In this document: piece after piece, positions 7,038 through 30,523 of the stretch
Layout of the letters: every line of letters starts with the position of its first letter
How positions within the stretch are numbered: the first letter of the stretch is position 1
Assembly (NCBI RefSeq): GCF_900114005.1
Contig: NZ_FORM01000002.1
Span: forward strand, 124,001-188,000
Direction: 5' to 3'
Source: Olleya namhaensis
Lineage (GTDB): Bacteria > Bacteroidota > Bacteroidia > Flavobacteriales > Flavobacteriaceae
Length of the DNA: 64,000 nucleotides
The notes under the pieces: generated by a model
Told to the model about the DNA's origin: nothing
Seen by the model: only the letters and a program-made list of their open reading frames with translations
Databases searched by the model: none
Made by a program: the position numbers and the translations under genes

Positions 7038-7110
7038 CAAAGGTAGACATAGTAAAAGCCTCCTGAAATGACGCAAGTCAGTTTTACTTGTTTTTAAAAT
7101 TGTTAATTTG
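7038..7110. promoter_or_regulatory. Bidirectional stress operator-promoter (site A)
   Basis: Palindrome TGACGCAAGTCA at 7069-7080. Minus side: TACCTTTG (7038-7045), exactly 29.5 bp from the palindrome centre, for YceI. Plus side: TTAATTTG (7103-7110), 28.5 bp from the centre, for the 7151 operon. One operator could therefore activate both directions. Confidence 0.75.
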
Positions 7111-7150: not shown

Positions 7151-7750
7151 ATGATCAAGAACTTAGTGCTTATTGTCTGTTTTATAACCTTAGGAAGCGA
7201 TTTGTACACTTCTGAAGAAAAAATATTGTTTGATGTTATTCGTAACGAAAAAGTAATTGGCAGCCTAAAAGCAACTAAAATAATCAAGGACTCTAAAACT
7301 TATTATAAAAGCTCGACTAGTATTAATGCAAAAATCATAAAAGAAATTAGAGTTAATTATAAATACGACGTCATTTTTGATTCTGAATCGTTAGAGCAAT
7401 CCAATGTAAACATTACAGTAAATGAAAAATCACATGCTAAGACTATTACAGAATGGGATGACACTAACTACCAAGTCATTAAAAATGGGAAGAATGAAGC
7501 TACAATTACTAACGCCATCTCCTATGCTACTGTCCAGTTGTATTTTGAAGAACCCAAAAACATCACGACTTGCTATTCTGAACAAAATGGGGATTTTAAT
7601 ACCATAATAGCCATGGGAAACCATATATATAAGAAAGTAAATGCAAGCAATAATGAAAATTTATACTATTACAAAAACGGACTTTTAACCAAAGCCACTA
7701 TAGATGGAGGACTTATTCAGTTTGAAATAATAAGAAAAAGCAATCATTAG
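7151..7750 (+). CDS. Exported DUF6134-like protein
   Basis: 199 residues with a short hydrophobic N-terminus that may be a signal peptide (MIKNLVLIVCFITLGSDLY). The remainder is beta-rich: FDVIRNEKVIGSLKATK, SINAKIIKEIRVNYKYDV and a C-terminal YYYKNGLLTKATID. This resembles DUF6134, a periplasmic family without a known activity. It is followed after 3 bp by cardiolipin synthase, so the two form an operon behind the plus side of operator A (predicted leader about 35 nt). Confidence 0.65.
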   Translation: MIKNLVLIVCFITLGSDLYTSEEKILFDVIRNEKVIGSLKATKIIKDSKTYYKSSTSINAKIIKEIRVNYKYDVIFDSESLEQSNVNITVNEKSHAKTITEWDDTNYQVIKNGKNEATITNAISYATVQLYFEEPKNITTCYSEQNGDFNTIIAMGNHIYKKVNASNNENLYYYKNGLLTKATIDGGLIQFEIIRKSNH

Positions 7751-7753
7751 ACT

Positions 7754-9190
7754 ATGACAATAGCCATTATTCTATATTTTCTTTTAGCTTTTTTCTTAAT
7801 GGGGAAACTATTAATTTATGGCATCAGACCCACTAAAACACTAGCTTGGTTACTCGCTATTTTCACAGTCCCTATTGGTGGTATGCTGTTTTACTTTGTG
7901 TTAGGAAGAAACAGAAGGAAAAACAAATTTTATACACTTAAAAAAACTAAGGCGATAGCTGAATATTACGAAAAAGTTGAAGCTTATTATAGCACATTGG
8001 ATAACGATAAAAACACGACCATCCCAAAAGCTATTAAAACACACATTAAGTTAGCTAAACTAATAACTAAAGGCTCTAAATTTACACCTACATTAGGCAA
8101 CGCATTACTTCCATTAAAAAATGGGGCAGCGACTTTTAAAGCTATTTTCCAAGCTTTAGAGCATGCTGAAAAATTTATTCATCTTCAATATTACATTTTT
8201 GAAGATGGTGATTTAGCCGAAAAATTTAAATCCATTTTAATTCAAAAAGCGAGAACTGGTGTCGAGATTCGTTTTCTATATGATGCGCTAGGCAGCAGAT
8301 CACTAAGCAAAACTTACATTAATAGTCTTAAGAAAGAAGGTATAGAAGTCTATGTTTTTTTACCCATGACATTTGGGCATCTACTCTCTTCTGTTAATTA
8401 TAGAAACCATCGTAAAATTGTAATTGTAGACGGTCGTATAGGTTTTACTGGTGGCATTAATGTCTCTGACAAATATGTCATTGGAGATCCTGTTTTAGGA
8501 AACTGGTACGATATGCACTTGCAATTAAAAGGGACAATAGTTAATAGTTTACAAGCGGTATTTGCAATGGACTGGAGTTTTGCTAGTGGCACAGATAATT
8601 TACTAAGCACTAAATACATATTAAAACACACTGCACCAGGACAATCTATAGCACAAATTGTTGCTAGTGGCCCTGATTCTGATTTTTCTTCGGTACAACA
8701 ACTCTATTTTTCTATAATAAATAATGCTAAAGATTATGTGTATATAACCAATCCGTATATAATTCCCGGAGAAGCTATATTGGAGGCCATGCAAGTCGCT
8801 GCCATGAGCGGTGTAGATATTAGGCTTTTGCTATCCACTAATTCCGATAGCTTCTTAGTCAAATGGAATGTTCGTGCCTATTTTGAAGACCTATTAGAAG
8901 CGGGTGTTAAAATTTATTTATATCCTGATGGTTTTTTACACAGCAAAGTTATTATATCAGACGATGCCTTAACCTCCATAGGAACTGCTAATTTAGACAT
9001 TAGAAGCTTTGAGCAAAACTACGAAGTAAATACACTTATATACGATAGTAAAATAACGATAGACCTTAAACAAGATTTTTTAAAAGACTGTAATAAAAGT
9101 AGTCCAATGAACTATAAACAACATCTTAAAAGACCCAAAACAGACCGCTTGAAGGAAGGGTTAGCAAAAGTATTTAGTCCTGTACTATAA
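7754..9190 (+). CDS. cls: Cardiolipin synthase (phospholipase D family)
   Basis: 478 residues, the usual length of bacterial Cls. An N-terminal membrane region comprises two hydrophobic segments (about residues 1-22 and 32-50, PLDc_N type). Two HKD motifs follow: HRKIVIVDGRIGFTGG starting at His219, and HSKVIISDDALTSIGTANLD starting at His396. The enzyme joins two phosphatidylglycerols to make cardiolipin and glycerol at the inner membrane. It is in an operon with the preceding small exported gene and possibly with the patatin gene 71 bp downstream. Through operator A it would belong to the stress regulon, linking the regulon to phospholipid remodelling. Confidence 0.93.
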   Translation: MTIAIILYFLLAFFLMGKLLIYGIRPTKTLAWLLAIFTVPIGGMLFYFVLGRNRRKNKFYTLKKTKAIAEYYEKVEAYYSTLDNDKNTTIPKAIKTHIKLAKLITKGSKFTPTLGNALLPLKNGAATFKAIFQALEHAEKFIHLQYYIFEDGDLAEKFKSILIQKARTGVEIRFLYDALGSRSLSKTYINSLKKEGIEVYVFLPMTFGHLLSSVNYRNHRKIVIVDGRIGFTGGINVSDKYVIGDPVLGNWYDMHLQLKGTIVNSLQAVFAMDWSFASGTDNLLSTKYILKHTAPGQSIAQIVASGPDSDFSSVQQLYFSIINNAKDYVYITNPYIIPGEAILEAMQVAAMSGVDIRLLLSTNSDSFLVKWNVRAYFEDLLEAGVKIYLYPDGFLHSKVIISDDALTSIGTANLDIRSFEQNYEVNTLIYDSKITIDLKQDFLKDCNKSSPMNYKQHLKRPKTDRLKEGLAKVFSPVL

Positions 9191-9261
9191 GCAACTGATA
9201 ATAATCATTATTTATATGTAACCAACGCACTACCTTTACTTTAACTAACACAACTTATAAA

Positions 9262-10029
9262 ATGAATACAGGTTTAGTTCTTTCTGGAGGAGGCGCTCGT
9301 GGTGCTGCACATATAGGTGCAATAAAAGCATTAGAGGAGTATGGGATTACACCAACACATATTTCTGGAACAAGTGCAGGCGCAATTATTGGCGCTTTAT
9401 ATGCTGCAGAGGTCAGTTGGTCAGAAATGTTAGCCTTTTTTAAAAACATATCCATATTTCAAACGACAAGATATGCCCGAAATAAACCTGGTTTTATAAA
9501 CTCTGAAAAATTTTATGACGACCTTAAAACCTATTTTCCAATTGATAATTTTGAAGCTTTAAAAAAACCCCTATACATTACAGCTGCCAATGTAATCGAT
9601 GGTACATTAAAAATATTTGACAAAGGACAACTTATAAAACCTATTATTGCGTCAGCATCTTTCCCTGGTGTTTTTACCCCAACTGAGATTAATGGTAAAT
9701 TTTATATTGATGGAGGTACTTTAAACAATTTTCCGGTAGAACCTTTACAAAAAGACTGCAAGAAAATTATAGGCATCTATGTTAATCCGTTAAAAAAAAT
9801 AAGCATTAACGATTTAAAACATTCTTATAGTGTTGTAGAAAGAGCTTATAAAATTAAAGTTGCATCAGAGTCTATGCTAAAATTTCCTAGTTGTGCTTTA
9901 ATTATCTCCCCGCAAGAGTTAAATAATTACGGCACTTTTGACATGAATAGTATAGATGCTATTTTTAATTTAGGTTATACAGCAACAAAAAAAGCTCTAG
10001 AAGAAAATAAAAACATATTAGCACCGTAA
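9262..10029 (+). CDS. Patatin-like phospholipase
   Basis: 255 residues comprising a single patatin domain. Visible are the oxyanion loop GGGARGAAHIG (residues 9-19), the nucleophile elbow GTSAG with Ser38, and the catalytic Asp150 in DGG. It is a serine hydrolase predicted to release fatty acids from phospholipids, close to the RssA/YchK type. No signal peptide, so it is cytoplasmic or membrane-peripheral. It sits between cls and a sensor kinase on the same strand (71- and 79-bp gaps) and could be a third operon member. Released unsaturated fatty acids would be substrates for the oleate hydratases of the same region (inference). Confidence 0.9.
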   Translation: MNTGLVLSGGGARGAAHIGAIKALEEYGITPTHISGTSAGAIIGALYAAEVSWSEMLAFFKNISIFQTTRYARNKPGFINSEKFYDDLKTYFPIDNFEALKKPLYITAANVIDGTLKIFDKGQLIKPIIASASFPGVFTPTEINGKFYIDGGTLNNFPVEPLQKDCKKIIGIYVNPLKKISINDLKHSYSVVERAYKIKVASESMLKFPSCALIISPQELNNYGTFDMNSIDAIFNLGYTATKKALEENKNILAP

Positions 10030-10108: not shown

Positions 10109-12883
10109 ATGAGTAGTCAATTAAAAGACAACATTCTTTTTAAAAGCATTTTCCAATCTTCAGTCGAAGGTATTTTGGTTATTGATGATGCTGGAGTAAT
10201 TGTTAAAGCAAATCCTGCTAGTCAACTCATGTTTGGTTATAACAAAGACGAGTTAATTCAAAAAAGGTTAGAAATTCTTATTCCCAATAAATTTAAAAGC
10301 AATCATAAATCGCATCGCATTCAATTTTCTAAAACCCCTACATCACGGCGTATGGGACAAAATTTAGATTTATGGGGCCTAAAAAAAGATGGCTCGGAGT
10401 TTCCTTTAGAAATTAGTTTAAGCCCCGCCAATATTGAAAACCAACAAATTGTCATTGCTTTTATAATAGATATAACAGAGCGCATCGCTGCAAAACAAGC
10501 CCTACTAACTAGTGAAAGTCGAATGACGGAAGCGCAACGTCTTGCGCACGTTGGCAATTGGAGTTGGAATATCCAAACTAATGAGAGAAGTTGGTCAGAC
10601 GAGTTTTATAGAATCCTTGGTCTTATTCCTGGTGACAAAAAACTAAATTCAGAATCCGTAAGACATTTTATTCATCCAGAAGATAGATCATCGACAATTC
10701 AAGCAATAAATAATGCTATAAAAAATAAAACCCCATATAAACACAAACACAGAATTATAAGACCAAATGGCACAATAAGACATCTTTTAACAAAAGGAAA
10801 AGTATTATATGATACCATTGGAAAACCAAAAGAACTATATGGTACCATTCAAGATATTACCAGACATAAAGAAAATGAATTAAAACTAAAAAACAGTAAA
10901 GACAAAACGCAGGCCATACTTGAAGCATTACCTGATGTCATGATTCTTTATGACAAGCATGGCAATCACCTAGAAGTTCATTCACCAGAAAATTATCAAC
11001 TTGTAGCGCCTTATCACGATTACATAGGTCATAATATCGATAAGATTCTACCAAAAAAAGTCTGTAAAAAAATAAGACAAGGGTTTGCTGATTGCGAAAA
11101 AACTAAAAAAAATCAAATCGTAGAATACTCACTTAACATCATGGGGAAGTTGATACATTTTGAATCACGAATAGTTAAAACAGAAACCAATAATTTTTTA
11201 TGCATTATCCGCGATATTACCGAAAGTGATAATGCAGAAAAAAAAATTCTAGAAAACGAACAAAGACTACGATTAACATTAGAAGCCGGCGAGTTTGGCT
11301 CTTGGCATTGGGATTTATTATCTGACAAGATCGTAAGAGACACTTACCAAAATGCTTTATTTGGCATGAACACCGAAGAGTACACGACTACTTATCAAGA
11401 TTTTTTAAGTAATATATATCCTGAAGACAGGGATAAAGTGCAAGCAACAATAACTAAAGCTATAAAAAACACCAGTAATTACACTATACAGTACAGAATA
11501 ACGCATCCGGATTTATCTGTCCATTGGCTTCACGAAAAAGGAAAGGTTTTTAAAAACTCTAATGGCACACCAGAACGGGTCATAGGTGTAACCAACAGTA
11601 TTACAAAACAGAAATTAGCAGAAGAAAAATTAAAAGAAAGCGAAGAAAAACTAAGAAACTATACCATAGCGTTAGAAACTAAGGTAACAGAACGCACTAA
11701 AGAACTAACTTCTGTTGTGCAAAAACTAGTGGCAGCAAACCTTAGTCTTGAAGACCAAATATTAATCACCGAGGAAGCTGAAAACATAGCTCTTAATAGT
11801 AAACAGGTCCTTGCAAACATTACTAAAAACTTTCCAAAAGGATTTGTAGTGGTCGTTGACATTGATTTAAAAATTATTTTTATTGACGGTGAAGAAATAG
11901 AAGCATTAGGTTTTACCTCTCTAGCACATACAAATGCTACAATATATGATGGCATCGGAATTACGGAAGTTACTAGAGACATCTTAATAAAAGAAATAAA
12001 AAAAACTTTTAAAGGAGAGCATTGTTCTTTTGAAATAAATATTCAGGATAGATCTTACCTAGTTAACACGACTCCATTACTAAATAACGAGAATCAAATT
12101 GAACAGATATTATTAGTAAATAATAACATCACACAGCAAAAGCAAATAGAACTAGATATTTTAAAGACGTTAACTAAGGAACGAGAATTAAGTGAATTAA
12201 AATCGCGTTTTATATCTATGGCTTCACATGAATTTAGGACGCCTTTAAGTGCCATTTTGTCTTCAGCTATATTAATTGAAAAACAAAACGAGCCAGGAAA
12301 AGAGGACAAGAGAATTAAATATGTCTCTAAAATTAGATCTAATGTAAAAAACCTGGTCGTGATACTAAACGATTTCCTTTCTCTAGGCAAATTACAAGAA
12401 GGAAAAGTAATTGCACATCCAGAAGCGTTCAATTTAATTGCTTTTACAGAAACGTTAATTGAGGAATTTGAAGACCTAAAAAAAGTAGGTCAAACTATTA
12501 ATTTACAATGTAAACTCACCTCTATTAAGGTGTTTTTAGATGTTAAATTATTAAAGCACATCATTTACAATTTAGTCTCTAATGCTATAAAATATTCTGA
12601 AGAACATCAAGACATAAATATAAACATAACGATTAAAAACCAGTTGGTCTGCATAGAAATCAAGGATAAAGGTATCGGTATTCCAACCGAAGATCAAAAC
12701 AATATGTTTCAACGTTTTTATCGTGCTAATAATGCTTCAAACATACAAGGTACAGGGTTAGGCTTAAATATTGTAAAACAATATACCGAATTAATGGATG
12801 GTACTATTAACTTTAAAAGTAAAATAAATGAAGGCTCTATCTTTTACATTGAATTTCCTTTAAACCAAAAACAAAATGAATAA
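10109..12883 (+). CDS. Multi-PAS sensor histidine kinase
   Basis: 924 residues with no membrane segment, so a soluble sensor. PAS domains lie at about residues 8-125, 140-255 (PAS_3 type with YGTIQDITRHK), 265-375, 388-505 and 565-680. A coiled coil (about 505-560) precedes the kinase core: HisKA with phospho-acceptor His707 in FISMASHEFRTP, N-box NLVSNAIKYS around 821-830, G1 DKGIGIP around 853-859 and G2 GTGLGL at 881-886. The first PAS has the FixL-like stretch RMGQNLDL...KKDGSEFPLEISLSP, and His66 (KSNHKSH) may align with the FixL haem-binding His. That PAS subclass often lacks haem, so this is only a possibility. Its 3' end overlaps the response regulator gene by 8 bp, so the two are a pair. 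Confidence 0.93.
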   Translation: MSSQLKDNILFKSIFQSSVEGILVIDDAGVIVKANPASQLMFGYNKDELIQKRLEILIPNKFKSNHKSHRIQFSKTPTSRRMGQNLDLWGLKKDGSEFPLEISLSPANIENQQIVIAFIIDITERIAAKQALLTSESRMTEAQRLAHVGNWSWNIQTNERSWSDEFYRILGLIPGDKKLNSESVRHFIHPEDRSSTIQAINNAIKNKTPYKHKHRIIRPNGTIRHLLTKGKVLYDTIGKPKELYGTIQDITRHKENELKLKNSKDKTQAILEALPDVMILYDKHGNHLEVHSPENYQLVAPYHDYIGHNIDKILPKKVCKKIRQGFADCEKTKKNQIVEYSLNIMGKLIHFESRIVKTETNNFLCIIRDITESDNAEKKILENEQRLRLTLEAGEFGSWHWDLLSDKIVRDTYQNALFGMNTEEYTTTYQDFLSNIYPEDRDKVQATITKAIKNTSNYTIQYRITHPDLSVHWLHEKGKVFKNSNGTPERVIGVTNSITKQKLAEEKLKESEEKLRNYTIALETKVTERTKELTSVVQKLVAANLSLEDQILITEEAENIALNSKQVLANITKNFPKGFVVVVDIDLKIIFIDGEEIEALGFTSLAHTNATIYDGIGITEVTRDILIKEIKKTFKGEHCSFEINIQDRSYLVNTTPLLNNENQIEQILLVNNNITQQKQIELDILKTLTKERELSELKSRFISMASHEFRTPLSAILSSAILIEKQNEPGKEDKRIKYVSKIRSNVKNLVVILNDFLSLGKLQEGKVIAHPEAFNLIAFTETLIEEFEDLKKVGQTINLQCKLTSIKVFLDVKLLKHIIYNLVSNAIKYSEEHQDININITIKNQLVCIEIKDKGIGIPTEDQNNMFQRFYRANNASNIQGTGLGLNIVKQYTELMDGTINFKSKINEGSIFYIEFPLNQKQNE

Positions 12884-13946
12884 AATACTATTAATTGAAG
12901 ACAATCAAGACGTAAGAGAAAATACAGCAGATATTCTTGAAATAGAAAACTACACGGTCATTACAGCAGAAAACGGTAAAATAGGTGTTGATATGGCCAT
13001 AGAGCATAACCCTGACATCATTATTTGCGATATTATGATGCCTGTTTTAGACGGTTACGGTGTTTTTGAAAGCTTAAGAAAAAACCATAAAACAGCAAGT
13101 ATTCCTTTTATTTTTCTGTCTGCTAAATCTGAAAAAACAGACGTAAGAAAAGGGATGAATATTGGTGTAGATGATTATTTAACCAAACCTTTTGAAGAAG
13201 ACGAACTTTTAGATGCTATAACTTGTCGCATAAAAAAAAGCACCTTTTTAAAGAAAGAATTCGCCAAAAACATGGAAGGTCTTAGCGCTTTTATTAACGA
13301 TGCCTCAGAGTATTTAAAATTAGAAGAACTCTCTCAAGATCGCAAACTTAAAAAGTACAAGACTAAAGATTGCATCTTTACAGAAGGTAACGCTGCGCAT
13401 CAATTATATTTTATACAAACAGGAAACGTTAAAACCTACAGAACAACAGAGTCTGGAAAAGAATTTGTAACGGGGTTTTATGGGCCAGGAGATTTTATAG
13501 GTCAATTATCATTATTAGGGGATAAAGGCTTATACATAGAAACCGCAAGTGTATTGGAAGATGCTGAGATTTGTGGCATTCCAAAAGCAGACTTTACTAA
13601 ACTACTTTACAGTAATAAAGAGGTCTCTAATAAATTTATAGATCTTATCTCAAATAATTTAATAGACATGCAAGAGCATTTAGTAGACATGGCTTACTCC
13701 ACCGTTAGACAAAGAACAGCTAAAGCATTGTTAGAATTGGATCAAAAAGGATTAATTAAAGACAACAGTCATGAAGGTATTAGCATCCCTAGAGAAGATT
13801 TTGCAGGTTTAATTGGCACTGCTACAGAAACTGCTATACGCATGTTAACCGAATTTAAACACGAAGGCTTAATCGAGGTAGAGTCTAATAGAAAACTTAT
13901 TTTATTAAACAAAGTCAGTCTAAAACAAATTGCAGAATTTGGATAA
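12876..13946 (+). CDS. Response regulator with CRP/FNR-type output domain
   Basis: 356 residues. The receiver domain (1-122) has acidic E8/D9, phospho-acceptor D52 in CDIMMP and K104 in TKPF. It is followed by a cyclic-nucleotide-binding-like beta-barrel (about 150-250, YFIQTGNVKTYR, FIGQLSLLGD), a dimerisation helix, and a CRP-type winged HTH (about 278-345). The recognition helix region TATETAIRML keeps the Glu (E318) and Arg (R322) that in CRP/FNR contact the TGA core of each half-site. It overlaps the upstream kinase gene by 8 bp. It is the only CRP-family regulator in the window, and so the prime candidate to bind the TGAC-N4-GTCA operators seen at more than a dozen promoters nearby (inference). 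Confidence 0.93.
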   Translation: MNKILLIEDNQDVRENTADILEIENYTVITAENGKIGVDMAIEHNPDIIICDIMMPVLDGYGVFESLRKNHKTASIPFIFLSAKSEKTDVRKGMNIGVDDYLTKPFEEDELLDAITCRIKKSTFLKKEFAKNMEGLSAFINDASEYLKLEELSQDRKLKKYKTKDCIFTEGNAAHQLYFIQTGNVKTYRTTESGKEFVTGFYGPGDFIGQLSLLGDKGLYIETASVLEDAEICGIPKADFTKLLYSNKEVSNKFIDLISNNLIDMQEHLVDMAYSTVRQRTAKALLELDQKGLIKDNSHEGISIPREDFAGLIGTATETAIRMLTEFKHEGLIEVESNRKLILLNKVSLKQIAEFG

Positions 13947-14567: not shown

Positions 14568-14891
14568 TTATTTTTGCGGCTCCATTTTTTTTAGCTCCTC
14601 TAACTTACGTTCTAAGCTAGAAATAATATCTTCTGCCTTACCATTCATATGAGAAATAGTTTCATCTAACTTCTCTTTCATTTCTTCTTTTTTCTCATTT
14701 ACAGATCTTGTCAAATCCGCTTTAGCGTGAGATACACGTTCAGAAATATCGTGTCTTGTATCTTCTGCTTTTTGCTTAATTTTTTTTCTAGTTTTCGTCC
14801 CTTTATCTGGAGCATATAACACCCCTATCCCTGCACCTAATGCAGCTCCAGCCAGTAAAGCTAATAATGTGTTTTCCTTAGTACTTGACAT
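14568..14891 (-). CDS. YtxH domain general stress protein
   Basis: 107 residues. It begins with a Gly/Ala-rich hydrophobic helix (LLALLAGAALGAGIGVLYAP), then the conserved DKGTKTRKKIKQKAEDTRHD, and a long Lys/Glu coiled coil to the end. This is the YtxH (general stress) family. The operator-promoter at 14933-14975 lies upstream with a leader of about 37 nt, and this gene heads a three-gene operon. Confidence 0.88.
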   Translation of the reverse strand: MSSTKENTLLALLAGAALGAGIGVLYAPDKGTKTRKKIKQKAEDTRHDISERVSHAKADLTRSVNEKKEEMKEKLDETISHMNGKAEDIISSLERKLEELKKMEPQK

Positions 14892-14932: not shown

Positions 14933-14975
14933 CTAAATTAAAGCAACTATCACTTATTTAAAATGACCTAAGTCA
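14933..14975 (-). promoter_or_regulatory. Stress operator-promoter (site B) for ytxH
   Basis: TGACCTAAGTCA at 14964-14975. On the minus strand TAATTTAG (14940 down to 14933) starts exactly 29.5 bp from its centre. Predicted +1 is 14928. Confidence 0.78.
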
Positions 14976-14995: not shown

Positions 14996-15038
14996 TGACA
15001 TAGGTCATTACTCTATTGTATAAAGCACATTACATTAG
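14996..15038 (+). promoter_or_regulatory. Stress operator-promoter (site C)
   Basis: TGACATAGGTCA at 14996-15007, with TACATTAG at 15031-15038 exactly 29.5 bp from its centre. Divergent from site B; the two palindromes are centred 32 bp apart, about three helical turns, so they lie on similar faces. Confidence 0.78.
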
Positions 15039-15058
15039 AACTATAATATGAAATTACT

Positions 15059-15544
15059 ATGAAATCGAAAATTAACAAAACAAAGCAAAAGCACGTTTTA
15101 TTAAAATCATACTCAAAATTTCAGCAAATAGAACAAGCAATAAAAGCCATTAAAACAACGGATAATAGCAACCTACAAATTTCTATTATTGGTAAGTTTG
15201 ACGAAGACCATTTGGATGATGCAAACCCCCTAATTGCTTTAGAAGAGGACATGGAAAAAAAATGTAAAGCTTTATTTAAAAACGCCATAGATTTTGGCAT
15301 TCTTTCTAACCCTGACATTGGAACAATTTTTATTACAGGGTTTCTTGTATCTCTTTTTTTACAAGAAATAGAACTTAAAAAAATTGGTACTATGCTAACA
15401 GGGCCTTATGGTATTTTAAGAGGTTTAGGTATTGATAAAAAGCCAGCGTTTACTTATTTAAAAGCATTACATCAAGGAGAATATTTAGTGATTTTTAGAG
15501 GATTTGAAAACGATTTAAAGCAATTAGAAGAAACAATTAATTAA
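15059..15544 (+). CDS. Hypothetical protein, stress regulon member
   Basis: 161 residues that I cannot place in a family. The N-terminus is very basic (MKSKINKTKQKHVLLKSYSK). The middle has an acidic stretch DEDHLDDANPLIALEEDMEKK and a hydrophobic segment (about 90-108, GTIFITGFLVSLFL). This is followed by a Gly-rich region MLTGPYGILRGLGI and a beta-like end GEYLVIFRGFEND. The arrangement recalls small stress proteins with a Gly-zipper between two alpha/beta halves, as in the DUF1269 or GSP17M style, but this is not certain. It is directly downstream of operator C (leader about 16 nt). Confidence 0.7.
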   Translation: MKSKINKTKQKHVLLKSYSKFQQIEQAIKAIKTTDNSNLQISIIGKFDEDHLDDANPLIALEEDMEKKCKALFKNAIDFGILSNPDIGTIFITGFLVSLFLQEIELKKIGTMLTGPYGILRGLGIDKKPAFTYLKALHQGEYLVIFRGFENDLKQLEETIN

Positions 15545-15588: not shown

Positions 15589-15631
15589 TGACCCAAGTCA
15601 TTTTATACCAAACGTTAAGCATCCATCTTTA
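15589..15631 (+). promoter_or_regulatory. Stress operator-promoter of the sigma-factor gene
   Basis: TGACCCAAGTCA at 15589-15600 and CATCTTTA at 15624-15631, exactly 29.5 bp from its centre. The -7 element is weak (6 of 8 matches), as expected for an activator-dependent promoter. Predicted leader about 21 nt. Confidence 0.72.
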
Positions 15632-15656: not shown

Positions 15657-16202
15657 ATGCAAACAAATGTTTCTTATTACCAAAATAAAAAAGCGTTCCG
15701 TGTATTAGTTACTAAATCGTTTACTGATTTAATTAAACTAAAAAAAGAAGGTAATCAAACCTCTTTTAATGCCTTAGTATTACAAATGATGCCACAAATT
15801 AGACAGTATGTCAATACACAATTAAACATCGCTATTAAAAAAGGCCATTTTTCAAAAAACAAGTACAAAGCAGACGATATTATAGATCAACTATTTATTG
15901 AAATTTATGACCATATAGAAGAGGTGAAAAAAGAAGAACACTTTTATCAATGGATATATAAAAAAACAAATGCTTTGTTAGAAGACCTTAGTATAACAGA
16001 AGAATTTGATGATTTTTTCTTTAAAAATATTGATGATTATTCTAAACCAGAATGGGATGCTATGCAAGAAAAATATAGTTCTGATGCAGATGGAGATGGT
16101 CATTTAAAGTTAATTGAAGAATTTGAAGACCGCTCTTACAACCATAATGACTATACTTTAAACCACGTATTTATTGAGAATAAAGAAAAAAAAATGGATT
16201 GA
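15657..16202 (+). CDS. RNA polymerase sigma-70 family factor, region 2 half (frame ends at A9 run)
   Basis: 181 residues ending in a frame that stops at 16202. Residues 25-115 look like sigma region 2: SFNALVLQMMPQIRQYV, DDIIDQLFIEIYDHIEEVKK and EHFYQWIYKKTNALLEDL. The linker is very acidic. The frame reads into nine A residues (16186-16194) and stops 8 nt later (ATG GAT TGA). The missing sigma region 4 is encoded immediately downstream in the +1 frame (to 16434). The gene is therefore either broken by an A insertion, mis-sequenced at a homopolymer, or read through by slippage. Joined, the product would be 258 residues. It lies behind a stress operator and ahead of a helical-protein gene. Confidence 0.75.
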   Translation: MQTNVSYYQNKKAFRVLVTKSFTDLIKLKKEGNQTSFNALVLQMMPQIRQYVNTQLNIAIKKGHFSKNKYKADDIIDQLFIEIYDHIEEVKKEEHFYQWIYKKTNALLEDLSITEEFDDFFFKNIDDYSKPEWDAMQEKYSSDADGDGHLKLIEEFEDRSYNHNDYTLNHVFIENKEKKMD

Positions 16203-16434
16203 AAAAATTGATAAAGATTTAAGTGAAGAAGATATAAAAAAACACATTTCCATGGTGTTACACAACCTACCTTCTGCAATGCGCAATGTTTTTGAATTAT
16301 TTACTACTCAAGAACTAAGTCTAGAAGAAATTGCACAAATTAGAAACAACACTATTAAAGATGTAGAACACCTTTTAAAAGATGCAAAAAAAGCGTTACA
16401 ACTTAGTTTATTAAACAGATATACTACTAAATAG
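16174..16434 (+). CDS. Sigma factor region 4 half (+1 frame continuation)
   Basis: The meaningful part starts at about 16188, just after the A9 run; the ATG at 16174 lies within the upstream frame and is probably not a natural start. It encodes WIEKIDKDLSEEDIKKH and then a sigma-70 region 4 helix-turn-helix: LPSAMRNVFELFTTQELSLEE, IAQIRNNTIKDVEHLLKDAK. That is the usual region 4 pattern (LP...R.vF.L....lS..EIA). Deleting one A from the run fuses it in frame with the region 2 half. Its conservation without further stops suggests that the joined protein is, or until recently was, functional. Confidence 0.7.
   Translation: MRIKKKKWIEKIDKDLSEEDIKKHISMVLHNLPSAMRNVFELFTTQELSLEEIAQIRNNTIKDVEHLLKDAKKALQLSLLNRYTTK
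16186..16194 (+). other. A9 slippage/frameshift site in the sigma factor gene
   Basis: Nine consecutive A residues at the exact junction of the two sigma-factor frames. One A fewer (or two more) restores a 258-residue sigma factor. Homopolymers of this length are known sites of polymerase slippage and of sequencing indels; the sequence alone cannot separate these. Confidence 0.7.
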
Positions 16435-18565: not shown

Positions 18566-19234
18566 TTATAAATACATTGGGTAATAGTCTACTTTTAATA
18601 GATTGATCACATTATTTATACCTGGTGCATTATACGCTGCAATTTCTGCATCTTCTTTTTCCTTAATAGAATGCACTGTCCCGCTTAATGTTAACTCATG
18701 ATCATTGACCGCTACTTTAATATTTTTAGCATCAATATTTGCAGATCGTGTAAATGCTTTTTGAATTAGATGCTCGACATTACCCGGTGTTGGTTTTGGC
18801 TTTAGATGGATATTATTAACAACTTCTTTTACACCATATAAATGTTCGATAGTTCTTTTTGCAAAACTTTTTTGATAAGGCCATTCTAATTCTCCCGTTA
18901 AATAAATCCTCCCGTCTTCCACCTCAACAATAATATTTTCTGAAGGGACAGACGCATTCCACTCTAACGTATTTATGGCTGCTTTTGCTATCTCTATATC
19001 AGATTGCTTATCTGTACTGCCATACTTTACTGTAATTGCCTCTGCTAAAGCTTTGACACCACAGAGAGACTTAACTGCATCTTCTATTGCTATTTTTTTC
19101 GGCAACACATTAACCTCTCCAGTAAGTGTAACAACGCCATCATCTACAGTAACGCCTATTTGAGTATTATCTATATTTGGTAGCCATGCTAATTCCTCTA
19201 AAACGTCTTTTTTAATTTCAAAATCTGTTTTCAT
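18566..19234 (-). CDS. BON domain protein, three domains (copy 1)
   Basis: 222 residues composed of three BON domains (about 3-70, 78-145, 150-218). Each carries the pattern I.V.V.dG.v.LtGeV, for example VTVDDGVVTLTGEV and VEVEDGRIYLTGEL, with GVKA/GVKEVVNNI turns. There is no signal peptide, so this is a cytoplasmic BON protein like those in general-stress clusters. BON domains are thought to bind lipids or membranes. It is a tandem paralogue of the protein at 19409-20062. It has its own operator-promoter at 19273-19315 (leader about 34 nt) and heads an operon with the dehydrogenase. Confidence 0.9.
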   Translation of the reverse strand: MKTDFEIKKDVLEELAWLPNIDNTQIGVTVDDGVVTLTGEVNVLPKKIAIEDAVKSLCGVKALAEAITVKYGSTDKQSDIEIAKAAINTLEWNASVPSENIIVEVEDGRIYLTGELEWPYQKSFAKRTIEHLYGVKEVVNNIHLKPKPTPGNVEHLIQKAFTRSANIDAKNIKVAVNDHELTLSGTVHSIKEKEDAEIAAYNAPGINNVINLLKVDYYPMYL

Positions 19235-19272: not shown

Positions 19273-19315
19273 TAAATTTACGGCACTAAGTTATATTACA
19301 TAATGACCTAAGTCA
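19273..19315 (-). promoter_or_regulatory. Stress operator-promoter (site D) for BON copy 1
   Basis: TGACCTAAGTCA at 19304-19315; TAAATTTA (19280 down to 19273) begins exactly 29.5 bp from its centre. Predicted +1 is 19268. Confidence 0.78.
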
Positions 19316-19408: not shown

Positions 19409-20062
19409 TCAATACTCTACTACTAACTCATTATCGACACTCCAAACTCCCGGTGCGTAAAAAGCGGTTCGTCTAGCATCATCTTTTTCTTTTAATGAAT
19501 GTACTGTACCTGTCAATTTAATGTTGTGACCTTCCGCTTTTACTGTAATATCTTTAGCATCAATATCTGCAGAGCGCTCGAATGCTTTTTTAATTTTGTC
19601 TTTTATGTCTTCTGCTCTTACTGCGTTTTTTAATGCAATATTATTTACTACATATTTTACACTTTGCAAGTTTTCAACCGCTTTTTTAGCTGCGTTTTTT
19701 TCAAAATCCCACATGACATCACCTCCTAAATACACCCAGCCATCTTCAACTTTAACCTCAATTTTGTTAGAAGGGACAGAAATATTCCATTTTAATGCAT
19801 TTACTGCAGCAGCAGCAATTTCTGAATCTGATTTCTGAAACGTAGTATTATACTTTACTTCAATCTCTTCGGCTACAGCCTTAACACCTACAACGCTTTT
19901 AGCTGCCTTTTCTGCTTCACGCTTTTTAACATAGCTATCCACCGTTCCTGTTAGTGTCACAATACCATCTTTTACAACAACTCCAATTTGAGTTTCGTCA
20001 ATACTTGGTTGCCATTCTAATTCGTCTAAGATGTCTTCTTTAATACTTAAATCTGTTCTCAT
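19409..20062 (-). CDS. BON domain protein, three domains (copy 2)
   Basis: 217 residues, three BON domains, collinear with the neighbour at 18566-19234 from MRTDLSIKEDILDELEWQPS versus MKTDFEIKKDVLEELAWLPN onwards. Repeated elements include VVKDGIVTLTGTV, VKVEDGWVYLGGDV and VKAEGHNIKLTGTV. No export signal. The two genes arose by tandem duplication but diverged considerably, so both are probably maintained. Operator-promoter at 20099-20141 (leader about 32 nt), terminator at 19321; monocistronic. Confidence 0.9.
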   Translation of the reverse strand: MRTDLSIKEDILDELEWQPSIDETQIGVVVKDGIVTLTGTVDSYVKKREAEKAAKSVVGVKAVAEEIEVKYNTTFQKSDSEIAAAAVNALKWNISVPSNKIEVKVEDGWVYLGGDVMWDFEKNAAKKAVENLQSVKYVVNNIALKNAVRAEDIKDKIKKAFERSADIDAKDITVKAEGHNIKLTGTVHSLKEKDDARRTAFYAPGVWSVDNELVVEY

Positions 20063-20098: not shown

Positions 20099-20141
20099 TA
20101 AAGATACCAAGACCATAACCCTTTGACACTGACCTGTATCA
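20099..20141 (-). promoter_or_regulatory. Stress operator-promoter (site E) for BON copy 2
   Basis: Imperfect palindrome TGACCTGTATCA at 20130-20141; TATCTTTA (20106 down to 20099) starts exactly 29.5 bp from the centre. Confidence 0.75.
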
Positions 20142-20275: not shown

Positions 20276-20752
20276 TTATTTTAAATGCGATCTTAACATC
20301 CAAGCTGTTTTTTCGTGCTGCTCCATAAGCCCTGTAATGTAATCACTAATCCCATCGGCTTGCCATTTGTCTGCAATAGGTTTTATTTCTTCTCTAATAA
20401 AAACAATAATACTTTCATGATCTTCTAACAATTCTGCGAAGATACTTTGGCTATCATTTTTACCTTTTACTTTTTCAGTAAGATGCGTTAATTGTGAGTA
20501 CTTTTCTAATGTTGCAGGTACATAATGACCAAGCATTCTTATTTTTTCTGCTACCGTATCGACAACCTCCTGTTGTGCCTCATATAATGTTTCAAGGTAC
20601 AGGTGTACAGAATGAAAATCTGGTCCTTCAACATTCCAATGAAAATTTAAAGTTTTAGAATACAATACAAATTCATCTGCTAATATTTTAGATAGTTGAT
20701 CTGCTATAACTTGTCTGTTTTCTGCTGAAATGCCTATGTTTGGTGTTTTCAT
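20276..20752 (-). CDS. dps: Dps ferritin-like DNA-protection protein
   Basis: 158 residues, standard Dps length. The inter-subunit ferroxidase ligands are all present with the canonical spacing: His38 (in HWN), His50, Asp65 and Glu69. Dps dodecamers oxidise and store iron using peroxide and protect DNA. It stands alone with its own operator-promoter (20780-20822, leader about 23 nt) and terminator. Its control by the same palindrome as the membrane-stress genes is good evidence that the regulon answers to oxidative or redox stress. Confidence 0.95.
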   Translation of the reverse strand: MKTPNIGISAENRQVIADQLSKILADEFVLYSKTLNFHWNVEGPDFHSVHLYLETLYEAQQEVVDTVAEKIRMLGHYVPATLEKYSQLTHLTEKVKGKNDSQSIFAELLEDHESIIVFIREEIKPIADKWQADGISDYITGLMEQHEKTAWMLRSHLK

Positions 20753-20779: not shown

Positions 20780-20822
20780 TAAAGGTATTGGATGTCTTAA
20801 ACACTGGTAATGACTTAGGTCA
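20780..20822 (-). promoter_or_regulatory. Stress operator-promoter (site F) for dps
   Basis: TGACTTAGGTCA at 20811-20822; TACCTTTA (20787 down to 20780) begins exactly 29.5 bp from its centre. The palindrome overlaps the last codons of the upstream DUF2238 gene. Confidence 0.78.
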
Positions 20823-21517: not shown

Positions 21518-23110
21518 TTAACCGCTAATAGATTTTACAGCAGTTAATAATGCTTTTGGACTGTGTATAGAGTCATAAACTGGCAGTACTTTTTTATCGG
21601 TTTCAAACAAACCAAAAACAGCAGTTTGTGCTGTTCTCACAGAATATTCTACAGTAAACACAACATCTTTTGGCACCTCAGCAAATTGTCCTAAAAAAGC
21701 AAAGTTAGTAGCACCTTTTGGTAAGACTTTTGGTCTATCTCCAATTTTTCTTGGCATAAATAAACTATCAATATAAGGCATTGCTGTTGGGATACAATTT
21801 ACCTTTCCTGCTTTTACAATTGGACTCATTATATCTTGTACTTTTAAATGGTACCACAATTCTTCTAATATTTCTCTACCAGTACATTCTGCCATTGTCT
21901 TATTAACGTAGTTTCCTTTTCGGTCTGGATATAAGCCATACCCCCAAAAGATTTTAACATCTTCCGGTTGGTTTGGAAAATGAGGTTGACGCGCAATGAC
22001 AATAGACATTAACCAATTAGAATCTGTCATAGTTACCAAACCACCCGTACCATCAACATTTCCTGAAAAATTCTCCATATAATCATGGAACGTACTATCC
22101 TTTAATGTTGCTGTAAAAGAGTACCATTTTTGTAAATCGATGTTATCACAAAAGGGATCAGGATTACCAAAAGCCTTATCTTTTTTTGCTAGTGTTTTCC
22201 ATAATTTCCAAGACCCAGATGCTTCAATTCCTTTTAGTTTTGCAGGTCTTTCCCAGGCACCATTATCGGTACTTTCTGTTATAGAACCGTTGGTGATAAA
22301 GACGTAATCGTTTGCTTCCAAAACAATTTCATTTTTATCTTTTAAGTGAATAACGGTTGCTGTTTTTTTATCTGAAGACAAATTGAAATCAATATCAACA
22401 ACTTCGTGACCCACATCAAAATTTACACCATAATCTTTTAAATAATTTTTTAAAGGAATAACTACAGAATGGTATTGATTGTACTTGGTGCGCATGACTC
22501 CTCCTAACTTTTTTAAACCATCAATTAAATGAATAAAGCGTTTCATGTAACGTCTCATCTCTACAACACTACTCCATTTTTGAAAAGCAAACATCGTAGA
22601 CCAGATATACCAAAAATTAGTTTCAAAAAAGGCTTGTTCAAACCAATCTTCGATTCTTTTATTTCCTAACGATTTCTCTGAAGCGAATATCAACTTTAAA
22701 AATTCCGCTTGTTGTTTTATAGATAATCCATAAGAAGATACATCCATAATTTTACCTTCTTTTAAAAGTCTTGCTTGCCCATTAGATACAAACCGTTTAT
22801 TAAATTCAAACGATTCGTCTTTAATAGAAACATTGGGATCTTCATAAGACGGAATATTAGATAACAAATCCCAATAGCATGTATAATGCGCTTCGTGCAT
22901 TCTACCGCCTCTTACAACAAAACCTTCTTCTTTATCTCCTGCACCATCTAGAGCACCTCCTAAGATATTATCTTTTTCTAAAATATGAATATTCTTACCT
23001 TGTACACCCGCATCTTTTACTAGATAAACTGCACTTGCCAGAGATGCTATTCCGCTTCCAATAAGATAAACTTTAGCATCTTCTGGATTTTTATTTTTTG
23101 TTTTACTCAT
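21518..23110 (-). CDS. Oleate hydratase family protein (FAD-dependent), copy A
   Basis: 530 residues, the normal family length. N-terminal FAD-binding motif LIGSGIASLASAVYL (about 17-31) and the signature VVRGGRMHEAHYTCYW; the C-terminal part has PYIDSLFMPR and FAEVPKDVVFTVEYSVR, hallmarks of the oleate hydratase/67-kDa MCRA family. The enzyme adds water across cis double bonds of unsaturated fatty acids (oleate to 10-hydroxystearate). The catalytic RGGRE motif of the best-studied members reads RGGRM here (Met71). The most divergent of three paralogues in 11 kb. It lies 135 bp after the HdeD gene with no stress operator of its own, so it is probably read from the promoter at 26910. Confidence 0.92.
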   Translation of the reverse strand: MSKTKNKNPEDAKVYLIGSGIASLASAVYLVKDAGVQGKNIHILEKDNILGGALDGAGDKEEGFVVRGGRMHEAHYTCYWDLLSNIPSYEDPNVSIKDESFEFNKRFVSNGQARLLKEGKIMDVSSYGLSIKQQAEFLKLIFASEKSLGNKRIEDWFEQAFFETNFWYIWSTMFAFQKWSSVVEMRRYMKRFIHLIDGLKKLGGVMRTKYNQYHSVVIPLKNYLKDYGVNFDVGHEVVDIDFNLSSDKKTATVIHLKDKNEIVLEANDYVFITNGSITESTDNGAWERPAKLKGIEASGSWKLWKTLAKKDKAFGNPDPFCDNIDLQKWYSFTATLKDSTFHDYMENFSGNVDGTGGLVTMTDSNWLMSIVIARQPHFPNQPEDVKIFWGYGLYPDRKGNYVNKTMAECTGREILEELWYHLKVQDIMSPIVKAGKVNCIPTAMPYIDSLFMPRKIGDRPKVLPKGATNFAFLGQFAEVPKDVVFTVEYSVRTAQTAVFGLFETDKKVLPVYDSIHSPKALLTAVKSISG

Positions 23111-25219: not shown

Positions 25220-26821
25220 TTAGTGGAATGCTTTAGCAACTGTTTGAAGTTCCACTTTAAGTGTTTTATCAAATTTTGTGATTGGCGGAATTTCAAGATC
25301 GATATCTAGCAATTGATATACTGCCATTTGTGCTGCTCTAACCGAATACTCTACCGTAAAAACAACATCATCAGGAATCTCTACAAACTGGCTGATAAAA
25401 GCTAAATTTTTAGAGTTTTTAGGTACAGGAAGTGGTCTATCTGTTTTTAAGCGTGGCATAAACATACTAGTGATGTATGGCATCCTGCATGGAATACAGA
25501 TTGCATTTGCAAATACAATATCGTAATCAAATTTTAAGTGTCCACAAAGCTCTCTCAGAATGTCTTCTCCAGAACATTCTGTCATGGGCTTACCTACAAA
25601 GTTACCCACGCGGTCTGGATGTAATCCATAGGTAAAAAAGACTTGCACATGATCTGGTTGGTCTTTATAATGAGGCTGTTCATTTAATGAAAAACTCATA
25701 AACCAATTAGAATCCTTAAGAGTTACTTGACTTCCTGTTCCAGCTTTGTTACCAGAAAATTGTTCCATTTGATCAAAAAACGCCGTGTCTTTTAAAGTGA
25801 CAGTAAACGATTCCCAAAATGATTCTGCGATATTGGTATTAAACACTTCTGGTCTACCAAATCCAGGATATCTACTTGCTAATTTCTCCCATAACACCCA
25901 ACCTTGACTGTCTTTTTTTGTGAAATGTTTTGGAGCTCTTGTCATCGACCCATAACTAGAAGCATCTGTCATTGATCCATTTTGATAGAAAACTAAATCG
26001 TCCTCATTAATTATTACAGTTTCAGAATGACCTGCCGTATCATACATTAGTTTTTTTACAACTACTTTTTCGGTTTCTGTTTTTGGATCCAAAGCATACG
26101 TTGTGTCTATATCTGTAACTGTACTTCCTGTTTTGAAATTAACACCATGAGATTTTAACCAAACTTTTAATGGTAAAATCATAGAGTCGTACTGATTATA
26201 AACGGTACGTTTAACACCTGTCATTGTTTCTACATTAGGAAACTCTTGCATAAAACGGTGTAAATATCGCTTAAACTCTACCGCACTATGCCAAGGTGAA
26301 AACGCAAAACTTGTGCGCCACATAAACCAGAAATTAGTTTCGAAAAACGAAGGCGAAAACCAATCGTAAATCGCACTATTACCTAATTTTTCTTCGCTTG
26401 CTTCACTTAATTTAAGAAGCTCTGTGCGGTCCGACATTGAAAACCCCAATTTAGATGAGTCTACAATTGCGCGGTTTTTATCTATTAGACGCGCTTTAGA
26501 ATGTGATTTTACTTTGTTATTAAAGGCTATGGTCTCTTCGGTTACAGATGTGTTAGGATCTGAAAGTGATGGAATGGATTTAAACAACTCCCACGTGCAC
26601 TCGTAAATATTTAATGTAAACATACGAGAGCCACGCAAGGTGTAGCCGTCTTCGGGATTACCTCCGGCATCTAAACTACCTCCTAATACTGGTAAACTTT
26701 CGTAGACCGTGATATTGTTACCTGCGAAGCCACCATCACGAATTAAAAATGCTGCTCCAGATAAAGATCCAATTCCGCCCCCTATAAAATATGCTTTTTT
26801 GTCTTTGTTATTTGTGTTCAT
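25220..26821 (-). CDS. Oleate hydratase family protein (FAD-dependent), copy B
   Basis: 533 residues. FAD motif FIGGGIGSLSGAAFLIRDGG (about 12-31), LRGSRMFTLNIYECTWELF at 62-80, NQYDSMILPLKVWL, PCRMPYITSMFMPR and FVEIPDDVVFTVEYSVRAAQ. In the signature the classical RGGRE is RGSRM (Met67 at the position of the proposed catalytic Glu, and Ser for the second Gly). It is closer to copy C than to copy A. It heads an operon of six genes in one direction (hydratase B, DUF1269, lipoprotein, HdeD, hydratase A, DUF2238) driven by a promoter with a perfect -7 element and two operators; leader about 84 nt. Confidence 0.92.
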   Translation of the reverse strand: MNTNNKDKKAYFIGGGIGSLSGAAFLIRDGGFAGNNITVYESLPVLGGSLDAGGNPEDGYTLRGSRMFTLNIYECTWELFKSIPSLSDPNTSVTEETIAFNNKVKSHSKARLIDKNRAIVDSSKLGFSMSDRTELLKLSEASEEKLGNSAIYDWFSPSFFETNFWFMWRTSFAFSPWHSAVEFKRYLHRFMQEFPNVETMTGVKRTVYNQYDSMILPLKVWLKSHGVNFKTGSTVTDIDTTYALDPKTETEKVVVKKLMYDTAGHSETVIINEDDLVFYQNGSMTDASSYGSMTRAPKHFTKKDSQGWVLWEKLASRYPGFGRPEVFNTNIAESFWESFTVTLKDTAFFDQMEQFSGNKAGTGSQVTLKDSNWFMSFSLNEQPHYKDQPDHVQVFFTYGLHPDRVGNFVGKPMTECSGEDILRELCGHLKFDYDIVFANAICIPCRMPYITSMFMPRLKTDRPLPVPKNSKNLAFISQFVEIPDDVVFTVEYSVRAAQMAVYQLLDIDLEIPPITKFDKTLKVELQTVAKAFH

Positions 26822-26909: not shown

Positions 26910-26952
26910 CAAAATTAGAATGTTATGTTGATTAACGCACTGACCTGAGTCA
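26910..26952 (-). promoter_or_regulatory. Stress operator-promoter (site G) of the six-gene hydratase operon
   Basis: TGACCTGAGTCA at 26941-26952; TAATTTTG (26917 down to 26910, perfect -7) starts exactly 29.5 bp from its centre. A second site lies 24 bp further upstream. Confidence 0.8.
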
Positions 26953-27245: not shown

Positions 27246-27301
27246 TGTATTGTGCTTTATTTGACAGAATCCCAATAAAATGGCTATCAAAACTTATAGC
27301 A

Positions 27302-27344
27302 TAAAATTACTTTTCTAAAAGACCACTTGCACTGACCTAGGTCA
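27302..27344 (-). promoter_or_regulatory. Stress operator-promoter (site I)
   Basis: Perfect palindrome TGACCTAGGTCA at 27333-27344; TAATTTTA (27309 down to 27302) begins exactly 29.5 bp from its centre. Drives the DUF5661 gene. Confidence 0.8.
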
Positions 27345-27373
27345 ACTTGATGCAAAAAAAAAGCTATTAAAAA

Positions 27374-27472
27374 GGGTGAATTTGCGTGAAGGATTGCAGT
27401 GGAAATCCCACAGCCCGACGCAGGAGGTGCGAGGAATTGCAGCGAAAAGCCTGACCTTTATGGTCACGCCCA
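27374..27472. repeat. GC-rich structured intergenic element with internal direct repeats
   Basis: A block of clearly higher GC than its surroundings. It holds two imperfect direct copies, AGGATTGCAGTGGAAATCC (27390-27408) and AGGAATTGCAGCGAAAAGCC (27432-27451). A closing stem pairs GCGTGA (27384-27389) with TCACGC (27464-27469), and a terminal hairpin is GACC-TTTAT-GGTC (27453-27465). I have an impression that similar GGATTGCAGTGGAAA / GCGAAAAGCC elements recur between genes in flavobacterial genomes, but cannot verify this here. It lies 3' of the MgtC-like gene and may be a REP-like element, a 3'-UTR structure or a small RNA. Confidence 0.55.
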
Positions 27473-29188: not shown

Positions 29189-29231
29189 CAAAGATTGTGT
29201 TTTACTTACGTGCTTGAAATGACCTAGGTCA
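29189..29231 (-). promoter_or_regulatory. Stress operator-promoter (site J)
   Basis: Perfect palindrome TGACCTAGGTCA at 29220-29231; AATCTTTG (29196 down to 29189) starts exactly 29.5 bp from its centre. Confidence 0.78.
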
Positions 29232-30361: not shown

Positions 30362-30404
30362 TAAATGTAACCAAGAATAGATGCTTATAAAATGACCTTG
30401 GTCA
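30362..30404 (-). promoter_or_regulatory. Stress operator-promoter (site K)
   Basis: TGACCTTGGTCA at 30393-30404; TACATTTA (30369 down to 30362) begins exactly 29.5 bp from its centre. Confidence 0.78.
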
Positions 30405-30480: not shown

Positions 30481-30523
30481 TGACCTACATCATTTACAAA
30501 CCCCAGAGCGCCCCTTAATTTTG
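30481..30523 (+). promoter_or_regulatory. Stress operator-promoter (site L) of hydratase copy C
   Basis: TGACCTACATCA at 30481-30492 and a perfect TAATTTTG at 30516-30523, exactly 29.5 bp from its centre. Predicted leader 32 nt. Confidence 0.8.

Follow-up and report, generated by a model that had tools for sequence, protein, structure and literature searches.

A stretch of 64,000 nucleotides from Olleya namhaensis (contig NZ_FORM01000002.1, positions 124,001 to 188,000), here called the window, carries at 12876-13946 the gene for a response regulator with a CRP-type DNA-binding domain. Based on comparison of related genomes, it is highly probable that this receiver-CRP protein activates the surrounding stress genes under the control of phosphorylation, through TGACCTAGGTCA-type palindromes at the class II promoter position. 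The PAS kinase encoded immediately upstream would phosphorylate D52 of the regulator, and the active dimer would then bind palindromes of the consensus ATGACCTAGGTCAT with TGA-N6-TCA spacing, as suggested by comparative genomics. It would activate sigma-A RNA polymerase from a site whose centre was computed to lie at -41.5, the bound site taking the place of the -33 element and the -7 box TAnnTTTG following at a fixed distance. The predicted targets are genes for YtxH, BON and Dps proteins, oleate hydratases, a sigma-like protein, a DUF5661 protein, an operon with MgtC, and others; the regulator very probably controls its own operon as well. A paralogous kinase/receiver-CRP system of the same genome, with universal stress protein (Usp) genes alongside, would use the sister operator TGATA-N2-TATCA.

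The regulator gene (12876..13946, plus strand) has an ATG start and encodes 356 amino acids comprising a receiver, a cNMP-fold domain and a CRP-type helix-turn-helix (HTH). This architecture, first proposed in the initial annotation, is borne out by the open reading frame (ORF) and by three Pfam domains, all above cut-off: Response_reg at residues 4-115 (1.5e-28), cNMP_binding at 159-244 (1.2e-21) and HTH_Crp_2 at 279-351 (1.5e-12). All 12 aligned orthologs keep the acidic pair E8/D9, the phospho-acceptor D52 and K104 of the receiver unchanged, and each has S or T at residue 82 (S82 in the window protein). The recognition helix does keep the Glu and Arg that had been pointed out before; E318 and R322, which align with E181 and R185 of CRP, are likewise invariant in 12/12. 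Upon alignment to E. coli CRP, the cAMP contacts E72, R82 and S83 correspond to Q210, Y220 and I221, and because these contacts are replaced, control by cAMP is unlikely. The NCBIfam CRP equivalog gave 78.9 bits (cut-off 266), the FNR model 70 bits (cut-off 228) and the FixK model 75.8 (cut-off 300). None of the best 25 of 106 matched NCBIfam models attained its cut-off; PhoB-type models gave the best scores for the receiver half, and CRP and FixK models those for the remainder, all far short of the cut-offs. The N-terminus is a receiver, with no N-terminal cysteine motif of the kind expected of the Fe-S sensor FNR, and FixK proper has no such receiver fused to it. The complete set of receiver residues and the adjacent kinase gene define a response regulator, while the cNMP_binding fold followed by a Crp-type HTH, together with the helix Glu and Arg and the enrichment of putative TGA-N6-TCA operators, define a member of the CRP/FNR superfamily. 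Judged by its sequence, the protein is both of these, and not cAMP-CRP, FNR or FixK proper. An AlphaFold model of the regulator (12 orthologs) had a mean pLDDT of 74.7 and a pTM of 0.47. Chains of CRP, FNR, GlxR and FixK2 (4i2o) were among the 50 Foldseek matches listed for this model (best E 9.9e-16); with a TM near 0.3, normalised to the query length, and an rmsd of 15-18 A, the structural agreement is local and not global.

The palindrome TGACCTAGGTCA, allowing up to two mismatches, was found 12 times in the window against 1.25 expected, and 0 of 100 shuffles reached 12. The window belongs to contig 19 of a genome of 3.52 Mb, in which TGAC-N4-GTCA occurs 29 times and its reversed control 28 times. 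A genome-wide excess was therefore rejected as proof, the motif having weight only together with its local cluster and its association across genomes. Eleven of the 29 sites lie in a 28-kb part of the window, where approximately 0.23 would be expected by length, so that the signal is a local cluster despite the lack of any genome-wide excess. The likeness to a FixK-type box put forward in the initial annotation holds for the TGA-N6-TCA spacing; TTGAC-N4-GTCAA itself has 0 matches in the window, the flanking base being A or C. The FixK/FnrN consensus is given as TTGANCNNGATCAANG in PMC4999443.

Based on a threshold of E up to 1e-60, a receiver-CRP protein was matched in 74 of 149 genomes of the family, and a clear identity gap separates 12 ortholog genomes (56-100%) from those having only a paralog (40-46%). 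The nearest named orthologs are those of Winogradskyella sp. (78% identity) and Flavobacterium sp. 7A (73%). A de novo search for every inverted repeat with half-sites of 4 or 5 bases and a spacer of 0-12 covered 40-60 kb around ten orthologs and 40 kb of the window. The top motif of these 11 regions was TGAC-N4-GTCA, with 59 occurrences against 0.55 expected and in 11/11 regions, with the extended forms ATGAC-N4-GTCAT (26 versus 0.13, 10/11 regions) and TGACC-N2-GGTCA (20 versus 0.09, 8/11 regions). TGAC-N4-GTCA also ranked first among 4-base halves in three named regions, those of Flavobacterium sp. 7A, Winogradskyella sp. and W. thalassocola (8 versus 0.07, 3/3).

The longer form TGACYTARGTCA was counted in 52 genomes, a non-random choice of all 12 ortholog genomes plus 40 of the 137 others (23 of these having the paralog and 17 showing no match of either kind at E up to 1e-60). 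It occurred 42 times in the ortholog genomes (reversed control 8) and 28 times in the 40 others (control 25), the difference between the two groups being significant (Mann-Whitney p=7e-6). Twenty-seven of 40 TGACYTARGTCA sites lie at most 35 kb from the regulator gene, with 0.67 expected, and were seen in 9 of 11 ortholog genomes; genome G034, in which the regulator lies close to the end of a 42-kb contig, was left out of this and all other region work. Flavobacterium 7A, Winogradskyella sp. 713 and W. thalassocola were included in the region counts (170 sites) and not in the genome counts. Genes were called with a simple longest-ORF routine, so their starts and a few of the calls are approximate (the ATP synthase gene of G113, for instance, was called as 186 aa).

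The position of the sites relative to genes was investigated in 14 ortholog regions. A distance of 50-80 bp from a start codon was observed for 54 of 73 intergenic TGAC-N4-GTCA sites, 38 of 72 mixed sites and 23 of 39 TGAT-N4-ATCA sites, and for 0 of 9 intergenic sites of the control palindrome TGAA-N4-TTCA. The sequence TAnnTTTG starts exactly 29 bases past the site centre in 41 of the 170 ortholog-region sites, every other offset giving 0 or 1; the same offset (+29) was found in 26 of 87 sites around the paralogs, again with 0 or 1 elsewhere. The shorter TAnnnT stands at +29 in 122/170 and 68/87 sites, respectively. In PMC9723704, TAnnTTTG is described as the sigma-A -7 box, located at -12 to -5 in Flavobacterium psychrophilum. 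Since this box begins 29 bases after the centre, the site is centred at -41.5. This is the class II position of CRP/FNR activators, and the promoters are accordingly predicted, from the position of the -7 box, to be of the class II CRP/FNR-dependent type. All 30 TGACYTARGTCA sites of the ortholog regions are intergenic, and in 26 of them the -7 box at +29 matches in at least 5/6 letters, compared with 0 of 25 control palindromes. In the window, nine of ten intergenic TGAC-N4-GTCA sites score 5 or 6 of 6 for the box on the gene-ward strand, while the one at 15589 scores 4. The claim that this protein governs the TGACCTAGGTCA regulon thus gains support, in that the motif tracks the ortholog across genomes, clusters beside its gene, has class II geometry and persists where no close FNR is present. 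The protein is also, as originally stated, the only one of its kind in the window (one HTH_Crp_2 and one cNMP_binding match), although this is weak evidence because the genome has four HTH_Crp_2 and ten cNMP_binding matches.

Several observations weigh against assigning the sites to this regulator. Two ortholog genomes, G050 and G010, have no TGACYTARGTCA within 35 kb of the ortholog gene, just looser sites, and the ortholog region of G010 also holds a paralog gene. Around the orthologs, 72 mixed and 39 TGAT-type intergenic sites stand beside the 73 full ones. The paralog regions contain 18 full and 38 mixed TGAC sites by the intergenic count; full TGAC-N4-GTCA occurs there 21 times, 15 of these being intergenic with a box. 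The recognition helix of an FNR-type protein of the same genome (C18:257294, N-terminal CxxC) is nearly identical to that of the regulator, TATESAIR versus TATETAIR. Of six intergenic TGACYTARGTCA sites examined in FNR-bearing genomes that lack the ortholog, four score 5/6 or better for the box (G144, G017, G029, G148). Outside the Flavobacteriaceae, receiver-CRP genes (40-52% identity) have only 0-2 promoter-linked sites per locus, as seen in 14 loci of 3-21 kb. A phylum-wide rule was rejected on the basis of these loci (L065-L077, L091), which lack a comparable local cluster of sites.

One explanation compatible with binding by this protein is that it mainly represses, or that its receiver is a passive relic and binding is free of phosphorylation. 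Against this stands the promoter arrangement in both families, where the site is centred at -41.5 and the -7 box lies at a constant distance, as is typical of class II CRP/FNR activators; the single spacing speaks against repression because a repressor would presumably not need it. The invariant receiver residues in 12/12 orthologs and the adjoining kinase gene in 14/14 regions likewise argue against a relic, and we regard this explanation as unlikely.

The paralogous receiver-CRP protein (G000:C14:146053-147099; L005, L176), which is 42% identical to the window regulator, might control the sites itself or share them with its sister. It belongs to the same protein family and its sites have the same spacing and promoter geometry; the 72 mixed TGAC/TGAT sites and the TGAT-type site in front of the patatin gene of the window also fit such sharing. 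The operators of the two systems are nevertheless different in composition. The leading 5-base motif around 15 paralog regions, three of which (G000, G142, G093) come from genomes also having the ortholog, was TGATA-N2-TATCA (16 versus 0.2 expected, 9/15 regions), TGAC-N4-GTCA being weaker (12 versus 0.23, 7/15 regions). Counting intergenic sites with at least 4/6 letters of the -7 box, TGACCT accounted for 93 of the 338 half-sites in ortholog regions and for 3 of the 188 in paralog regions (p=1e-16, on the assumption that half-sites are independent), and two of these three lie in G093, a genome also carrying the ortholog. The reverse was seen for TGATAA/TGATAT, with 36/338 and 74/188, respectively. 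In addition, the 23 paralog-only genomes, counted within the 40, show no TGACYTARGTCA excess. At residue 320, in the recognition helix, all 12 orthologs have Ala, 14 of the 15 paralogs Leu and the remaining paralog Phe; this difference is a possible cause of the operator divergence. Specificity is not clean, because mixed and TGAT-type sites abound in the ortholog regions, yet control of the cluster by the paralog appears quite improbable.

A third explanation is that the FNR-type one-component regulator binds the palindrome and the receiver-CRP gene is a mere neighbour. Besides the nearly identical helix and the boxed sites in ortholog-free genomes, it is favoured by two sites near the FNR gene of O. 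namhaensis, which have TGA-N6-TCA spacing and boxes of 5/6 and 6/6 at +29. The centres of these two are AT-rich (TGACATTTATCA, TGATATTTGTCA) and not CCTAGG, and the site cluster adjoins the receiver-CRP gene. Moreover, the 40 non-ortholog genomes show TGACYTARGTCA without excess over control, and where 19 of their 28 sites were read (12 genomes, all with FNR), 13 of the 19 were inside genes. No FNR match at E up to 1e-30 was found in the ortholog genomes G050, G056 and G049, and just 33-35% matches in G093; the sites remain, with 2, 6, 3 and 2 full intergenic ones in the ortholog regions of G050, G056, G049 and G093, respectively. FNR is thus disfavoured as the binder, though not at every site, and the probability of this explanation is very low. 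Since four of the six intergenic non-ortholog sites have the -7 box, FNR or the paralog may occasionally use TGACYTARGTCA. Recognition of the palindrome by the sigma-like protein (gene at 15657) can practically be dismissed. In its favour, the gene is often found nearby, 9/9 of its homologs have an operator, and the protein has weak sigma-70/ECF similarity below curated cut-offs. Against it, a symmetric TGA-N6-TCA palindrome is no sigma element, the -7 box next to the palindrome is TAnnTTTG of sigma-A, and the gene is split between two frames in the window while the operators persist.

The candidate cognate histidine kinase is encoded at 10109..12883 (plus strand); it has several PAS domains, HisKA and HATPase, and its gene overlaps that of the regulator by 8 bases. 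A kinase gene lies directly 5' of the regulator in 14/14 ortholog regions, with a gap of less than 60 bp in 13 of them. The first PAS domain (PAS 1) of the window kinase matches the heme PAS chains of FixL and DosP (3e-11 to 4e-11), and upon alignment its His falls in the column of the heme-ligand His of FixL and DosP. This His is kept in 14/14 aligned paralog kinases and in 7 of 13 aligned ortholog kinases (G054 and L169 were left out of the alignment), being absent or diverged in G050, G093, G103, G010, Winogradskyella sp. 713 and W. thalassocola. Because it is kept in just seven of the 13, FixL-type heme sensing by the window kinase was demoted to a possibility.

Genes for DUF6134 (7151-7750), PLD-type (7754-9190) and patatin (9262-10029) proteins, all on the plus strand, probably form an operon (7151..10029) which leads into the kinase gene. 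An operator-like site of the TGAT type, TGATAATAATCA (9196..9207, plus strand), lies 54 bp 5' of the patatin gene with the -7 box TACCTTTA at +29. The site TGACGCAAGTCA (7069..7080) is located between a YceI-like gene (minus) and the DUF6134 gene (plus); its -7 box is 6/6 on the minus strand, towards the YceI-like gene, and 4/6 on the plus strand. The absence of an operator in front of the kinase-regulator pair, from which lack of autoregulation had been suggested, was not upheld. When same-strand genes were followed upstream across gaps of no more than 260 bp, a site whose -7 box at +29 scores 5/6 or better was identified ahead of the operon in 12 of 14 ortholog regions, including the window (9196); no such correctly spaced site was found in Flavobacterium 7A and W. 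thalassocola. Assuming co-transcription, autoregulation of the kinase-regulator operon is likely. In G000, G142, G054 and G050 the site closest to the kinase is of the TGAT type, so the operon might there be controlled by FNR or by the sister regulator. As a separate observation, the presence of this sister-type site before patatin, kinase and regulator in the window and in G142 makes cross-regulation of the two systems possible.

Eleven further sites in the window were tentatively assigned to genes. Downstream of the regulator these are putative operators for the YtxH gene 14568-14891 (14964..14975, minus strand), the 161-aa gene 15059-15544 (14996..15007, plus) and the sigma-like gene 15657 (15589..15600, plus), with -7 boxes of 5/6, 5/6 and 4/6, respectively. 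All on the minus strand and with 5/6 boxes are those for the BON-domain gene 18566-19234 (19304..19315), the second BON-domain gene 19409-20062 (20130..20141; the mixed site TGATACAGGTCA) and the Dps/ferritin-like gene 20276-20752 (20811..20822). The oleate hydratase gene 25220-26821 is preceded by a putative operator at 26941..26952 (minus, 6/6 box), with the half-type neighbour TGACTTAAATCA at 26965. Perfect copies of TGACCTAGGTCA, both on the minus strand with 5/6 boxes, lie before the DUF5661 gene 26979-27290 (27333..27344) and before the gene 28776-29162 (29220..29231), which is followed by the MgtC/DUF4010 gene 27495-28769. The remaining two are assigned to the gene 29884-30342 (30393..30404, minus, 5/6) and to a further oleate hydratase gene, 30560-32134 (TGACCTACATCA, 30481..30492, plus, with the 6/6 box TAATTTTG). 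The site at 2431 was dropped from the list, as it is inside coding sequence and has no -7 box.

Homologs of the window genes (at least 30% identity, window included) were examined for an operator within 250 bp upstream. It was present for YtxH in 9/9, the 161-aa gene 15059 in 11/11, the sigma-like gene 15657 in 9/9, DUF6134 in 4/4, patatin in 9/11, the two BON families together in 9/11, Dps in 2/2, 28776 in 4/5 and 29884 in 3/4 cases. Genes inside operons scored low: PLD 0/5, the holin-like 14203 0/7, 14001 0/8, 16459 0/8 and MgtC 0/4. Era and TrmH, one copy each, had no operator within 250 bp, and the single site of Der, at 198 bp, is the coding-sequence site 2431. Pfam names among the window targets are Dps/ferritin-like, BON, MCRA oleate hydratase and DUF5661, with MgtC/DUF4010 and ArsC-like within operons. 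Ten targets scanned in other genomes include Hsp20, Usp, PEP-utilising dikinase, an ATP synthase subunit and P-type ATPase; PCMT/erythromycin-esterase-like, MlaE and MscS-type genes were further ones.

Elsewhere in the genome, 12 of 18 full sites were read; two have a 6/6 -7 box and the other ten at most 3/6. One of the two, C13:115792, is a perfect palindrome before a gene for a 418-aa secreted-type protein. The other, C14:180283 (L014), is a TGAC-N4-GTCA site 63 bp before a 205-aa gene, a candidate distant target whose start appears, by eye, OmpW-like. The term "master" is generous, because the regulon in its own genome is mainly a local cluster.

The ECF-like sigma gene (15657-16434) is a single frame of 255-258 aa in eight other ortholog regions. 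In the window it is spread over two overlapping frames, 15657-16202 and 16174-16434, which join at a poly-A run, and its operator at 15589 is kept. A real break, slippage and an assembly error would look alike here. Three oleate hydratase (MCRA) genes lie within 11 kb (21518-23110, 25220-26821 and 30560-32134), two of them immediately preceded by putative operators; the response may extend to fatty-acid detoxification or membrane stress. A G+C-rich intergenic stretch at approximately 27360-27470, unlike its surroundings, adjoins the operator at 27333 and looks like a dispersed repeat element. The sequence TGACCAAGGTCA was found twice about 10 kb apart (G000:C18:350698 and C18:360586; L017, L018) with no -7 box, both copies sharing near flanks and the start of a 430-aa reading frame, that is, a repeated gene segment.

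The proposed system resembles FixL-FixJ-FixK of rhizobia in that a PAS kinase would control a CRP/FNR-type activator with a TGA-N6-TCA site. It differs in having the receiver and the FixK-like module fused in one protein, for which reason there is no FixJ step. With the CRP/FNR superfamily (CRP, FNR, FixK, NtcA) it shares the cNMP fold and HTH, the helix E and R, the site spacing and the predicted class II position, the differences being the N-terminal receiver, the replaced cAMP contacts and the missing N-terminal cysteine motif. The paralogous system (C14:146053) has the same architecture (40-46% identity), a kinase next door and the same promoter geometry, unlike the operator, the length of the kinase (366-501 aa in 15 regions) and the Leu or Phe at residue 320. 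In O. namhaensis the paralog gene lies between a kinase gene and a Usp gene, with TGAT-type operators nearby.

A likeness to the DosR regulon and the low-oxygen-activated (lxa) locus can also be seen. DosR is not known to be a CRP-type protein. According to PMC6127331, the lxa locus is a 50-gene cluster with six Usp proteins, a heat shock protein and a BON protein; judging from this paper and from PMC9104464, both are compact stress-gene clusters under common control with a target list similar in style. Single ortholog regions have site-linked Hsp20, Usp, P-type ATPase and PEP-utilising enzyme genes. The differences are that oxygen is here at most a possible signal, and that neither Usp nor Hsp20 turned up among the scanned targets of the window.

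A literature search of open-licence papers found no study of a receiver-CRP protein in Bacteroidota. As a tentative proposal, possible rather than probable, the Flavobacteriaceae may have evolved phosphorylation-switched CRP/FNR activators which collapse FixL-FixJ-FixK into a kinase and a single fused protein, with the regulons of duplicates insulated through operator positions 4-6 (TGACCT versus TGATAW) and perhaps residue 320. Together the duplicates would run a survival programme like that of DosR or lxa, for which FixL-like PAS kinases might sense oxygen or redox state. In the textbook view, CRP/FNR proteins are one-component activators that sense a ligand or a cluster. The same output module under a receiver, with predicted operator, geometry and targets, would make control by phosphorylation directly comparable with control by cAMP. 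The two paralogous systems, with operators that differ at defined positions and one helix residue changing in step, would offer a natural experiment on the separation of regulons after duplication. For Flavobacteriaceae-type bacteria, the analysis provides a concrete candidate regulator and a predicted operator for their stress genes.

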